NCBI GenBank assembly: GCA_011390635.1
Contig: JAABSA010000004.1
Coordinates: 62,001 to 126,000, forward strand
Reading direction: 5' to 3'
Source: Desulfotignum sp.
Lineage (GTDB): Bacteria > Desulfobacterota > Desulfobacteria > Desulfobacterales > Desulfobacteraceae
DNA: 64,000 nt
In this document: positions 17,463 to 22,234 of the stretch, piece after piece
Numbering within the stretch: position 1 is the first letter of the stretch
Layout of the letters: the number at the start of each line of letters is the position of its first letter
Program-made: the position numbers and the translations under genes
Notes under the pieces: model-generated
Told to the model about the DNA's origin: nothing
The model's database searches: none
The model's input: the letters and a program-made list of their open reading frames with translations, nothing else

Positions 17463-18494
17463 TCATACAAAAAAATTGCGGTTGGGTATAGACAAAATGG
17501 CAGGGCACGGGTCTAAAAGTTTGTGAATGTTGTCTTTGAGTTCTTCCATGTTCCTGGCCTGGTTCAGCTGTTTTAGTAAAAAATGGGAAAACTTGAAATT
17601 GGCACAGAAATAGGGCGAGAATTTTTTGAACAGTTTCAGACTGAAGGGCATGTCATAGTGGTGCTCCAGCAGGGATGCCATGCGTATGGCGGTTGCATGG
17701 TAAATGCTGTGGTCAAAAAACATTCCTTTCGTCCATTGGGCAAAAATCCAGGGCCGGGCCACAGCCATGCGGCCCAGGGCAAGGCCGTGGCAGGTGGTTT
17801 GTGCCAAAATCCTTGTGCCGTCCTGGATGGTGAAAATATTACCGTTGCCAAAGACTGGAATAGTGACGGCTTTTGTGACCCTGGTGATGATATCCCATTT
17901 AGGAGGACGGCTGCGTCTGTCCGGGGCCACCCGGGGGTGGAAAGTCAGGGCATCTGCCCCGGCTGATTCAAAGCGTTTTGCCATGTCTTCGGCATATGCC
18001 GGATCATCCGACCACCCGGTGCGAAATTTTACAAATACCGGAAAAGAGACAGCAGCCCGCACTGCTGCCACAATCTCTGCAGCCTGGTCCGGGGTTTTCA
18101 ACAAGGCTGCACCGCAGCCTTGTTTACAGATGGCTGCCACGGAACATCCGAAGTTCAAGTCCACCCCGAAAAAGCCTTCCTGCTCAATGCGGCGGGCAGC
18201 CTGTGCCATGGTATCAGCAGTTGCACCAAAGATCTGGCAGACAGTGTATGGCAGTTCTTTTTTGCGCCAGCAAAACACCGTTGAAACTGCCGGGTTTTCA
18301 TGGGGAACCGCTTTGGCTGAGCACATGCCGGTGAACAAGAGTCCGAACCCCCCGAATTGCGCCACCAGTTCCCGGAAGGCAATATGGCCCAGGCCGGCCA
18401 TGGGTGCCAGCACCATCCGGCCGGCAGCCACCTTTTTGCCGATGGGCAAAGGGGTATTCAGGTATCGGGCAAAGGCATCGGCATCCATGGGCAT
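17463..18494 (-). CDS. tRNA-dihydrouridine synthase family protein
   Basis: A 343-residue FMN-dependent TIM-barrel enzyme that reduces uridine to dihydrouridine in tRNA D-loops. The flavin-site start MVLAPMAG, the VDLNFGCSV segment and the catalytic Cys in KQGCGAALL are present, with GNGNIFT and GLALGRMAVARPW later. AAAGGAG (18501-18507) fixes the start at 18494. The canonical N-terminal motif is APMxGVTD; here it reads APMAGLGHIAF, a divergence seen in Dus-like subgroups, so I do not assign DusA, B or C. It is divergent from the fur-feo operon. Confidence 0.88.
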   Translation of the reverse strand: MPMDADAFARYLNTPLPIGKKVAAGRMVLAPMAGLGHIAFRELVAQFGGFGLLFTGMCSAKAVPHENPAVSTVFCWRKKELPYTVCQIFGATADTMAQAARRIEQEGFFGVDLNFGCSVAAICKQGCGAALLKTPDQAAEIVAAVRAAVSFPVFVKFRTGWSDDPAYAEDMAKRFESAGADALTFHPRVAPDRRSRPPKWDIITRVTKAVTIPVFGNGNIFTIQDGTRILAQTTCHGLALGRMAVARPWIFAQWTKGMFFDHSIYHATAIRMASLLEHHYDMPFSLKLFKKFSPYFCANFKFSHFLLKQLNQARNMEELKDNIHKLLDPCPAILSIPNRNFFV

Positions 18495-18543: not shown

Positions 18544-18572
18544 TTGACATACCAGGGCGGCTATCATATCTT
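18544..18572 (+). promoter_or_regulatory. Sigma70 promoter of the fur-feoA-feoB operon
   Basis: TTGACA (18544-18549), 17-base spacer, TATCTT (18567-18572), about 30 bases before the ATG at 18601. No classic 19-bp Fur box is visible between the Dus start and this gene. Confidence 0.65.
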
Positions 18573-18600
18573 AGTGTGTTATTTTACAGGATTAAAAAGA

Positions 18601-19584
18601 ATGATCAATACCCACGAACAGGAAAAAAAACAGTTCATCAGACTGTTTAAGGAACAGGGACTGGACCGGTTTGACGAACGGTTTCAGGTCCTTGAAGCTT
18701 TTTTACAGCTGGACCATCACGTGACCCAGGCAGATATAGCGGGGCAGTTACAAAAAGGCGGGAAACAGCTGGACGATGCGTTTGTGTTTTCCTCCATGGA
18801 GCATCTTTGCCGGTTCGGATTTGCTGAAAAGGTTGAATTCGATCAGGGAGAAACCCTGTATGAGCACCGGCACATTGGTATTCATCATGACCATATGATC
18901 TGCACAAAATGCGGCACTATTCTGGAATTCAAAGATGAGGCCCTGGAAAGACAACAAAAAAAGGTCGCCCAGGCCTATGGGTTTCACCTGCTCCAGCACC
19001 GCATGGAAATGTATGGGCTTTGCGCTGCCTGCATGGCCCAGCGGCAAACCCTGGTCCCTTTACACAAAGCCAAACAGGGAGAGCGGTTGCTTGTGAAGCA
19101 ATTGGAAGCCGGCAAACAAATGCAGCTGCGTATTTCCTCCATGGGCCTGAGAACCGGTGATGAGATTGAAGTGGTATCCAATGGATTCGGCGGACAGGTC
19201 GTGATCGCAGCCGGTGATAACCGCCTGGTAATCGGCAGCGGAATGGCACAGAAAATCTGGGTGCAACCTGTGGACATTTCCACAGATATGCACAAAAACG
19301 GGAAAGATGCCATCCTGCCGGAGCCGGAAAGCACAAGAGTGCTGTTGTGTGATATGAAAGCCGGCCAGGAAGGAACCATTGTGCGGGTATCTGGTGAAAC
19401 TGTTTTGCGGCGGCGGCTGCTGGAGATGGGTATCAACAGGGGAGCACTTGTGTATGTGGAAAAATATGCGCCGTTAAGAGATCCCCTTGAAATGGTCGTC
19501 AAAGGCTATCATGTGTCTCTCCGGGTGGAAGAGGCGGCCCAGATTCTGGTTGAAAATGTGACAACCCGGAAACGGTCAACATGA
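18601..19584 (+). CDS. Fusion of Fur-family regulator with two FeoA domains
   Basis: The 327-residue protein joins three modules. Residues 1-150 are a Fur-type repressor: a winged helix, then HHDHMICTKCG with Cys101/Cys104 and a second pair Cys141/Cys144 forming the structural zinc site. Residues about 151-225 and 244-320 are two FeoA-like SH3 domains; each has a basic, methionine-led strand pattern (RISSMGLRTGDEIEVV; RLLEMGINRGALVYV). FeoA normally is a separate small protein that supports the FeoB iron transporter. The ATG at 18601 follows a promoter; upstream in-frame codons lack support. Its stop overlaps the feoB start. The architecture suggests iron sensing and transporter control in one chain. 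Confidence 0.9.
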   Translation: MINTHEQEKKQFIRLFKEQGLDRFDERFQVLEAFLQLDHHVTQADIAGQLQKGGKQLDDAFVFSSMEHLCRFGFAEKVEFDQGETLYEHRHIGIHHDHMICTKCGTILEFKDEALERQQKKVAQAYGFHLLQHRMEMYGLCAACMAQRQTLVPLHKAKQGERLLVKQLEAGKQMQLRISSMGLRTGDEIEVVSNGFGGQVVIAAGDNRLVIGSGMAQKIWVQPVDISTDMHKNGKDAILPEPESTRVLLCDMKAGQEGTIVRVSGETVLRRRLLEMGINRGALVYVEKYAPLRDPLEMVVKGYHVSLRVEEAAQILVENVTTRKRST

Positions 19585-21752
19585 AACAGGAGCTGACCAT
19601 TGCCCTGGCGGGAAATCCCAACTGCGGCAAAACCACCATTTTCAACAATCTTACCGGGGCACGCCAGAAAGTGGGCAACTGGCCCGGGGTCACCATTGAA
19701 AAAAAAGAAGGGTTTCTCAGGTATAAGCAGTATTCTCTGCGGGTGGTGGATCTGCCCGGTACCTACAGTTTGACCCCGTTTTCCATTGAAGAAATAACAA
19801 CCAGGGATTTTATTGTCCAGGGAAATCCGGATATTGTGATCAGTATCATTGATGCATCCAATCTGGAAAGAAGCCTGTTTCTTGCGCTCCAGATCATGGA
19901 GCTGGGATGTCCGGTACTGTTTGTGCTGAACATGGCGGATATGGCCCAGGCCCGTGGGATACGCATCAATGAAAAAAAATTATCCACCCTGCTGGACCTG
20001 CCGGTGGTGTTTACGGTGGGAAATAAAAACAAGGGTACAGACCGCCTCATCGAAGCAGCTATCCAGGAAAGCCTGGCCTTTGACAGGGGCAAAAAACCCA
20101 GGGTTATCCGGTATGGGAATGAAACAGAGGCATGTATCAGTCGTGTGGAGGCCTTGATCCATAAGGCCCGGACCGATGTGGACCAAACACTGGTCCGGTG
20201 GCATGCGATCAAACTGCTGGAAGATGATGCCATCGAAAAACAAAAGATTCTGGACTGCCTGCCCCGGGATGGTGCCGGTATAATCGATGCTGCCGCAAAC
20301 TGCCGCCAACGAATATTTGATCTGTTCCAGGATGATTTTGAGATTGTGCTCACCGAAGACAGGTACGGGGTGATAGCCGGCATACTCAAGGAAACCGTCA
20401 CCAATTCCGCCAAAAAGCGCATCGATATGTCCCGGAACATTGATCTGGTTTTAACAGACCGTTTCCTGGGAATTCCGGTATTTATTTTTTTCATCTGGGC
20501 CATGTTTCAGACCACCTTTGTTTTGGGAGCTTATCCCATGGCCTGGATTGAATCGGGGGTGGGGTTTTTGTCTTTCTGGCTGGATCGGCTTATGCCGGCA
20601 TCCCTTTTCAAATCAATGCTATTGGACGGCATTGTCGCCGGCATCGGTTCCGTGATTGTCTTTCTTCCCAATATTCTGATTCTGTTTTTCTGTATTGCCC
20701 TGTTTGAAGACACCGGATATATGGCCCGGGCTGCGTTTCTCATGGACCGGGTCATGCATACCGCAGGACTGCATGGCAAATCCTTTATTCCCATGCTCAT
20801 GGGCTTTGGTTGCAATGTGCCTGCCATCATGGCTGCCAGGACTCTGGAACACCAGAAAGACCGGATTCTCACCATCTTGATGACCCCGTTCATGTCCTGT
20901 TCCGCCAGGCTGCCGGTGTATATTGTACTGGCCGGCAGCTTTTTCGCCCACAGGGCCGGAACGGTTATTTTCGGGCTCTATGCTGCCGGGATTATCATTG
21001 CCATCGTGTCTGGACGGATATTGCGGGCCCTTTTCTTTAAAGGAGAGGATGCCCCGTTTGTCATGGAACTGCCCCCTTACCGTATGCCTATGTTCAAAAG
21101 TCTGTTGATTCACATGTGGGACAGAAGCAAAATGTTTTTGCGCAAAATGGGCGGGGTGATTCTGGTGGGATCTATTGTGATATGGGCGTTGTCGAGTTTT
21201 CCCAGAGACATTACCTATTCACAGGATTACCGGGCCAAAGAAGCTGATATCCGGTCCCGATTTGCTCGCAGTCTTGAAACAGCGGATGCTGATCAACAAT
21301 CTGTTTTACATGAAAAACTTGCGGCAGAAATACGACAGATGCACACGCTGAAAGAGCAGGAAAGAGTTTCCAAGTCCTATATCGGCAGAATCGGCCATGC
21401 CCTGGAACCCTTGTTCGCCCCCATCGGTATCGGGTGGCAGGCCAGTGTAGCCCTTGTGACAGGGTTTGTGGCCAAGGAAGTTGTGGTCAGCACCATGGGG
21501 GTGCTTTACGGGGTGGGGGGGAATGAAGGCCAGGCGTTGACCATGGCATTGAAACAATCGGGAATGACACCGCTGTCTGCTCTTTCCATGATGGTATTTG
21601 TGCTGCTGTACGTTCCGTGTTTTGCCACAGTGGCTGTAATATACAGGGAAGTGTCTTTTAAATGGGCCTGCTTTAACATTATTTATACGACCATGGTTGC
21701 ATGGACCCTGTCTTTTCTGGTATATCAAACAGGAATGATGTTACGTGGATGA
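19581..21752 (+). CDS. feoB: Ferrous iron transporter FeoB
   Basis: A 723-residue full-length FeoB. The N-terminal G domain has G1 GNPNCGKT at 11-18, G3 in DLPGTYSL and G4 NMAD. A helical GDI-like spacer extends to about 270, then a polytopic membrane region contains two Gate domains, with the cysteine-containing segments MGFGCNVPAI and YVPCFATVAVI. It imports Fe2+ across the inner membrane. The ATG overlaps the Fur-FeoA-FeoA stop (ATGA). Under anoxic, sulfidic conditions Fe2+ is the relevant iron form. No feoC is visible; the fused regulator may take its place. Confidence 0.97.
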   Translation: MKQELTIALAGNPNCGKTTIFNNLTGARQKVGNWPGVTIEKKEGFLRYKQYSLRVVDLPGTYSLTPFSIEEITTRDFIVQGNPDIVISIIDASNLERSLFLALQIMELGCPVLFVLNMADMAQARGIRINEKKLSTLLDLPVVFTVGNKNKGTDRLIEAAIQESLAFDRGKKPRVIRYGNETEACISRVEALIHKARTDVDQTLVRWHAIKLLEDDAIEKQKILDCLPRDGAGIIDAAANCRQRIFDLFQDDFEIVLTEDRYGVIAGILKETVTNSAKKRIDMSRNIDLVLTDRFLGIPVFIFFIWAMFQTTFVLGAYPMAWIESGVGFLSFWLDRLMPASLFKSMLLDGIVAGIGSVIVFLPNILILFFCIALFEDTGYMARAAFLMDRVMHTAGLHGKSFIPMLMGFGCNVPAIMAARTLEHQKDRILTILMTPFMSCSARLPVYIVLAGSFFAHRAGTVIFGLYAAGIIIAIVSGRILRALFFKGEDAPFVMELPPYRMPMFKSLLIHMWDRSKMFLRKMGGVILVGSIVIWALSSFPRDITYSQDYRAKEADIRSRFARSLETADADQQSVLHEKLAAEIRQMHTLKEQERVSKSYIGRIGHALEPLFAPIGIGWQASVALVTGFVAKEVVVSTMGVLYGVGGNEGQALTMALKQSGMTPLSALSMMVFVLLYVPCFATVAVIYREVSFKWACFNIIYTTMVAWTLSFLVYQTGMMLRG

Positions 21753-21772: not shown

Positions 21773-22234
21773 ATGATACAAAAGCGATCGGGAAATTTAT
21801 CTTCTATCATACTGGTCCTTGCAGTTTTTTATCTGACTGCCGGCGGCGCTGCTGCCACTGCTGCCGAACGGGTGGTAGTCAAGTCCAGTATTGCCAATAT
21901 GCGGTCAGGACCAGGCACCAATTATGAAGTTCTCTGGCAGGTGGAGAAATATCACCCGTTTCTTGTGAAGGAAAAAAAAGGCAACTGGTTCAAAATACAG
22001 GATTTTGAAGGAGACATGGCCTGGATTCATTCTTCTCTTCTGGAAAAGATGGAAGGGGTTATTACCAGCAAATCCAAGTGCAATGTCCGGTCTGAACCCA
22101 ACACGGACAGCAGGGTTTTGTTCACCGTTGAACGGGGGGTCCCCTTTAAGGTAATTAAACGAGACGGCAATTGGATACGTATTGAACATGCAGATGGTGA
22201 AAAAGGGTGGATATACAAAACCCTTGTCTGGTAG
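21773..22234 (+). CDS. Exported protein with two bacterial SH3 domains
   Basis: A 153-residue protein. A signal peptide (about 1-30, ending AAATAA) precedes two SH3b repeats, about 33-92 and 95-153; each has an N-M/V-R-S-x-P segment (NMRSGPGTNYEVL; NVRSEPNTDSRVL) and ends W-I-H/Y. SH3b domains often bind peptidoglycan or proteins in the periplasm. GGAGG (21761-21765) precedes the ATG. It lies 20 bases behind feoB and before the TPR gene, so it is probably in the feo transcript, though no functional link to iron is evident. Confidence 0.85.
   Translation: MIQKRSGNLSSIILVLAVFYLTAGGAAATAAERVVVKSSIANMRSGPGTNYEVLWQVEKYHPFLVKEKKGNWFKIQDFEGDMAWIHSSLLEKMEGVITSKSKCNVRSEPNTDSRVLFTVERGVPFKVIKRDGNWIRIEHADGEKGWIYKTLVW

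Follow-up and report, generated by a model that had tools for sequence, protein, structure and literature searches.

Fur–FeoA fusion proteins form a clade that keeps the Fur iron-sensing site, has lost the DNA-reading residues of Fur and is frequently linked to feoB

Introduction

Two partners of the Fe(II) transporter FeoB and two kinds of metal-responsive regulators (Fur and the DtxR type) provide the closest described systems for the locus analyzed here; the papers cited below by PMC number are quoted from extracts of their text. Bacteroides fragilis FeoA interacts with the G domain of FeoB and stabilizes its GTP form (PMC8980893), and FeoC shields FeoB from FtsH (PMC10710835). Magnetospirillum gryphiswaldense Fur reads DNA with Lys15, Tyr56 and Arg57: the Y56A variant gave a very weak signal, K15A bound about tenfold more weakly, and no binding was detected for R57A (PMC4506495). 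FeoA has been described in fused form as well. In the extract of PMC8749426 the only fusions named are FeoA–FeoB, and the FeoA-fusion survey in PMC8980893, as far as its extract goes, admitted FeoA joined to FeoB only and removed proteins in which FeoA accompanies DtxR or other non-Feo parts. This exclusion may be one reason why Fur–FeoA proteins were passed over. Our literature search covered titles and the opening lines of abstracts, with most subscription journals and preprints outside its coverage, and found no description of a Fur–FeoA fusion.

Here we describe such a protein in a 64,000-nucleotide stretch of DNA (the window) from the draft genome (4.09 Mb) of a Desulfotignum sp. A first-pass annotation, made from the sequence alone, had read the gene as an intact Fur repressor carried on one chain with two FeoA domains. 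The comparisons below suggest another picture: a conserved clade of Fur proteins in which DNA seems to have been given up for the Feo transporter.

Results

Architecture of the fusion and its neighborhood

The gene encodes a single chain of Fur and two FeoA domains, placed directly before feoB (Table 1). Translation and Pfam agree with the first-pass annotation on this architecture, both CxxC pairs and the HHDHMICTKCG motif that it listed are present in the translation, and the ATGA coupling to feoB holds. The FUR match covers residues 25–138 (PF01475; 83.5 bits, cut-off 23.1), two stretches match FeoA (PF04023), with a whole-protein score of 121.5 bits (cut-off 23), and the adjacent FeoB reaches 646.2 bits against TIGR00437 (cut-off 315.65). 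Neither the DtxR metal-binding/dimerization domain (PF02742) nor FeoC (PF09012) is among the Pfam matches of the fusion up to an E-value of 0.1. As for a phage origin, the only PHROGs match was to phrog_13084, a viral family of unknown function. It took in the Fur part alone (window 18616–19044, 2e-22), a hint that phages carry Fur-like proteins.

Table 1. Coordinates of the fusion gene, its domains, flanking genes and upstream elements in the window
Feature	Position	Strand	Remarks
Dihydrouridine-synthase gene	17463–18494	opposite	reads away from the fusion
Sigma70-type promoter, TTGACA-17-TATCTT	18544–18572	+	both boxes evident when 24 feoB-linked loci, the window's own among them, are reduced to an 80% consensus
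GTTATTTT element	18578–18585	+	just 3' of the -10 hexamer; also part of that 80% consensus (the same 24 family loci); a few differ by 1–2 bases
Fur–FeoA1–FeoA2 open reading frame	18601–19584	+	327 aa, no internal stop
Fur winged-helix domain	18601–18858	+	residues 1–86; DNA-reading residues lost, Fe ligand H40 kept
Fur dimerization and metal domain	18859–19041	+	residues 87–147; E88, H95, H96, D97, H98, E109, E116, H133, C101/C104/C141/C144
FeoA1	19048–19272	+	residues 150–224; Pfam and VIA-align; SH3-type, resembles FeoA and the C-terminal domain of the DtxR family
Linker	19273–19338	+	residues 225–246; pLDDT <50 at residues 229–241
FeoA2	19339–19560	+	residues 247–320; Pfam; typical FeoB-partner FeoA
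feoB	19581–21752	+	complete, 723 aa; start overlaps the fusion stop (ATGA)
SH3-domain gene	21773–22234		after feoB

In a model of the full chain (pLDDT 84, pTM 0.37) the domains were mostly confident and their orientation was not fixed, which was also the case in a model of residues 1–228 built on a deeper alignment (pLDDT 89, pTM 0.69). The Fur part of the shorter model superposed on Helicobacter pylori Fur (2xig) over 144 residues at 2.1 Å (Z 16.2), indicating at the level of the model that the Fur fold is kept. FeoC was not among the structural matches listed for the fusion models, which counts neither way. The two FeoA domains proved unlike. Compared with B. fragilis FeoA (7r7b), FeoA2 shows 39% identity and an rmsd of 0.9 Å over 74 residues, and FeoA1 shows 19% identity. 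The first model of FeoA1 placed the MntR-type structure 5zr6 at the top (Z 13.4), and the second tied FeoA 3e19 (13.7) with 5zr4 (13.4). Because of this tie FeoA1 is taken to fit FeoA and DtxR-type domains about equally, and its classification as specifically a DtxR-type SH3 domain was dropped.

Distribution and descent

A search of 145 relatives returned matches in 139, many of them to a single domain only. By hand count, matches across all three domains were present in 61 of the 86 genomes of the window's family, its own included. Outside the family the chain mostly stops after the first FeoA, and in other families of the order this Fur–FeoA1 form is often followed by feoB and by FeoA as a gene of its own. 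Among the matches listed for 395 genomes sampled over the phylum, a hand count gave Fur–FeoA in at least 68, many outside the order; most of the weaker matches listed were Fur alone. The fused form thus occurs in dozens of genomes and, since the three-domain form recurs in the family and the Fur–FeoA core beyond the order, a frameshift or assembly artefact joining two genes is ruled out. Removal of identical sequences reduced the proteins from 121 to 96 and the Fur cores from 163 to 156. We then compared 76 fusion Fur domains (75 drawn at random plus the window's) with 47 other Fur domains in a tree of 147 columns, in which some long rows and the columns differing between the groups were kept. 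A single branch, with support 99/98 and present in 98% of bootstrap trees, separated all fusion Fur domains from the others, and they form one clade in this sampled tree.

A conserved iron-sensing site

In the alignment, the window protein carries all Fe(II) ligands and the structural CxxC pairs. H33, E81, H88, D89, H90 and the four cysteines were found in 156/156 distinct fusion Fur cores, E101 in 155, H125 in 149, and H87 and E108 in 142 each; H87, E108 and H125 are slightly looser than the other ligands, and the second-site ligands span 142–156 of the 156. Judged by this alignment, the primary Fe(II) ligands and the four structural cysteines are essentially invariant. The invariant H33 of Escherichia coli Fur, H40 in the window protein, sits on the winged-helix domain. 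Conservation specific to the fusions was seen in the N-terminal helix (H5 in 138/156, Q11 in 123/156) and after E88, where H91 adds a histidine beside the metal sites in 146/156; the commonest residue there in Fur-only proteins is Tyr (22/44). Invariant ligands and this extra histidine would suit an Fe(II) acceptor or chaperone that docks on FeoB through FeoA, takes the incoming ion and hands it on with no regulatory part. We consider such a role improbable: having a ligand on the winged helix favors a conformational switch, and known Fur sites act as sensors.

Loss of the DNA-reading residues

At the positions of K14, T16, T54, Y56 and R57 in E. coli Fur, the window protein has D22, F24, F61, F63 and S64. 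The loss extends over nearly all fusions: K/R14 remains in 4/155 and T/S16 in 10/155 (one row has unread bases at these two positions), T/S54 in 8/156, Y56 in 0/156 and R57 in 3/156, versus 44/44, 44/44, 44/44, 43/44 and 44/44 for Fur-only controls from this phylum, a non-random set made up of 22 solo frames in fusion loci, L211, L212 and 20 hand-picked regions. An acidic residue occupies position 57 in 76/156 fusions and position 14 in 120. The exceptions are R57 in L019, L109 and L157, K57 in four proteins and K/R14 in four, none of which has two of the three contacts. Mean entropy at Thr54, Tyr56 and Arg57 was 2.44 bits in fusions versus 0.39 in Fur-only proteins. Net charge over the winged-helix domain averaged -4.3 in fusions versus +2.7 in the 44 Fur-only proteins, by itself a soft argument because E. 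coli Fur and the C9 Fur homolog of the window's own genome are both at -1 over the same stretch (the C11 homolog is at +5).

On the sequence comparison the fusion is a Fur homolog by descent and, because Lys14/15, Tyr56 and Arg57 are missing, is not filed as a Fur repressor; annotation by domain would give that label, probably wrongly, to the whole clade. The finding bears directly on the first-pass annotation, which took the repressor for intact, suggested that it might shuttle between DNA and FeoB, and named missing DNA-contact residues as a ground for refutation. Domain architecture and gene overlap speak for a functional repressor shuttling between its promoter and FeoB, but the alignment, with the DNA-contact residues replaced in the window protein and in nearly all members, largely refutes it. 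The behavior of R57A in M. gryphiswaldense Fur (PMC4506495, extract) also speaks against it, and we rate it as highly improbable. The idea of an iron-responsive link to FeoB on one chain survives through architecture, gene overlap and conservation; its repressor half is lost with the DNA contacts.

The upstream region

Next to the promoter, GTTATTTT is possibly an operator or start-site element (Table 1). It was absent by eye from ten loci without feoB in the group g8. In the window's own genome, an extended GTTATTTT pattern with up to three mismatches matched the window site and no further copy, and a regulon sharing the element was dropped as a candidate. Visual inspection of the upstream alignments showed no clear palindrome. 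Measured against the 17-position delta-proteobacterial Fur box (PMC545781), the region upstream of the window gene scores 12 or less, in line with the earlier statement that it lacks a classic Fur box; of the 94 order-set loci whose upstream sequence was long enough, three (L069, L074, L084) reached 15/17 or more.

These features touch on whether the fusion might still bind DNA with a new specificity, its remodeled recognition helix and L1 loop reading another operator, perhaps its own GTTATTTT region. The winged-helix fold is kept in the models; helix 4 is not random in the short-form members of the order, because it often reads R-(E/D)-T; and GTTATTTT is conserved beside the feoB-linked family fusions and not seen at the feoB-less g8 loci. 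Against this, the minor- and major-groove contacts are both lost, the domain is acidic on average, residues 54, 56 and 57, which face the DNA, are much more variable than in Fur-only proteins, and the promoter element is a single-copy site without a clear palindrome, leaving this reading unlikely.

Linkage to feoB and decay of FeoA2

feoB lies within 1.5 kb downstream on the same strand at 94 of the 154 fusion loci with enough sequence, a count that leaves out L064, L071 and L208 as too short and six phylum loci repeating order loci. Of the 60 genomes without a nearby feoB, 57 have a FeoB_C match elsewhere, which is weak evidence because FeoB is so common; no FeoB_C match was found in G126 (97% complete), G117 (91%) or G116 (65%). 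With 60 of 154 loci lacking a nearby feoB, a purely local role at FeoB fails for Fur–FeoA1.

Group g8 allows the domains to be followed separately. Ten of its loci (L118–L127) carry the fusion without feoB, and three g8 genomes (L019, L026, L109) keep feoB. Forty linked relatives served to define conserved positions. Among the 5 of 10 feoB-less g8 proteins that are in alignment A1, FeoA2 retained 48% of these positions, and the winged helix, dimer domain and FeoA1 retained 86%, 94% and 88%. Only FeoA2 has thus decayed here, and, judging from these sequences, it appears to be held by the neighboring FeoB and Fur–FeoA1 by something else, in cis or in trans. Unequal decay, the dissimilarity of the two domains and the predominance of chains ending after FeoA1 outside the family leave the earlier suggestion that a duplicated FeoA part bridges two FeoB protomers without support. 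Downstream of the fusion, the SH3 and TPR genes are retained at the six feoB-less g8 loci inspected. At L125:2671–4030, two open reading frames that look transposase-like by eye separate these two genes in a neighborhood that is otherwise conserved.

Coexisting Fur proteins and Feo genes

The window's own genome has three Fur-family matches and, by inspection, no second HHDH-type Fur among them; FeoC gave no match over the cut-off in this genome. A second feoA–feoB pair (G000:C28:126102–127382; L003, L136) has a divergently oriented small gene of the DtxR family beside it, which lacks a FeoA domain and is perhaps the actual metal regulator of that pair. The only PF02742 match of the genome belongs to another gene than the fusion, at C28. 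In the phylum set, 13 of 61 fusion loci (L144, L146, L159, L168, L173–L178, L183, L184, L188) have a Fur-only frame that precedes the fusion on the same strand, either overlapping it or at a distance of up to about 400 bases, with R57 in 13/13 and HHCH in place of the HHDH of iron Fur in 12/13; at these loci, therefore, both kinds of Fur coexist. Such pairing would fit a fusion that acts as an Fe(II)-dependent inhibitor of true Fur, forming heterodimers through the conserved dimerization domain and taking Fur off DNA. For a Desulfovibrio desulfuricans Fur that lacks the DNA-binding domain, the extract of PMC545781 raises inactive heterodimers among other possibilities. The other two Fur-family matches of the window's genome lack the HHDH motif by inspection, and the FeoA domains would be left unexplained; we judge the heterodimer quite improbable.

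Discussion

The reading we favor, to which we would give about an even chance, is that a Fur paralog has come off DNA and now serves the Feo importer from the cytosol as a regulatory subunit that responds to Fe(II). Sequence supports it through the kept Fe(II)/Zn sites, the lost DNA readers, the single clade, the frequent linkage to feoB and a constraint on FeoA2 that tracks feoB. In the mechanism that we envisage, the Fur part would dimerize, and Fe(II) binding would swing the winged-helix domain, which carries the ligand H40; the moved winged helix would then present a protein-contact face in place of a DNA reader. The FeoA domains would place Fur at FeoB, FeoA2 in cis and Fur–FeoA1 perhaps in trans, and the swing might alter how FeoA1/FeoA2, or the winged helix itself, is seated on the FeoB G domain. 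Fe(II) import would be damped as a result when the cytosol is replete. Inhibition of FeoB by Fe(II) would be a simpler feedback than stabilization. The small protein FeoC of enterobacteria offers a precedent: the fusion would take its part at FeoB and bring its own iron sensor. With somewhat greater reserve, we propose that the Fur winged helix has itself turned effector on a membrane transporter, the Fe(II)-loaded Fur–FeoA protein binding FeoB and switching its G domain.

If true, Fur would be serving iron homeostasis here without acting on transcription, and would do so in a clade found through much of the phylum to which the window's sulfate reducer belongs. It would bear on the role of FeoA and on how bacteria lacking FeoC tune FeoB once it has been made. 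With an iron sensor tied to FeoA and the DNA reader removed, direct Fe(II) feedback on FeoB becomes testable with soluble proteins.

Among known systems, FeoC, a small protein, shares a winged helix with the fusion. Its action on FeoB is to keep FtsH from degrading it (PMC10710835, extract); where FeoC has a [4Fe-4S] cluster (PMC8749426, extract), the fusion has a Fur-type Fe(II) site. With FeoA, including the FeoAB fusions of Bacteroidota, the protein shares a typical FeoA in FeoA2 and the joining of FeoA to another part; it differs in that the partner is Fur, not FeoB, and in having two unlike copies. Regulators of the DtxR/IdeR/MntR type likewise place a metal-sensing winged helix before an SH3/FeoA domain, and FeoA1 fits MntR-/IdeR-type domains about as well as FeoA, whereas the sensor here is a Fur with another metal domain and without the DNA contacts, making the architecture a parallel one. 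Fur itself, from H. pylori, E. coli and M. gryphiswaldense, has the same fold, dimerization domain, structural zinc cysteines and primary Fe(II) ligands; unlike it, the fusion lacks the DNA-reading Lys, Tyr and Arg, has a winged helix that is acidic on average and carries one or more FeoA domains.
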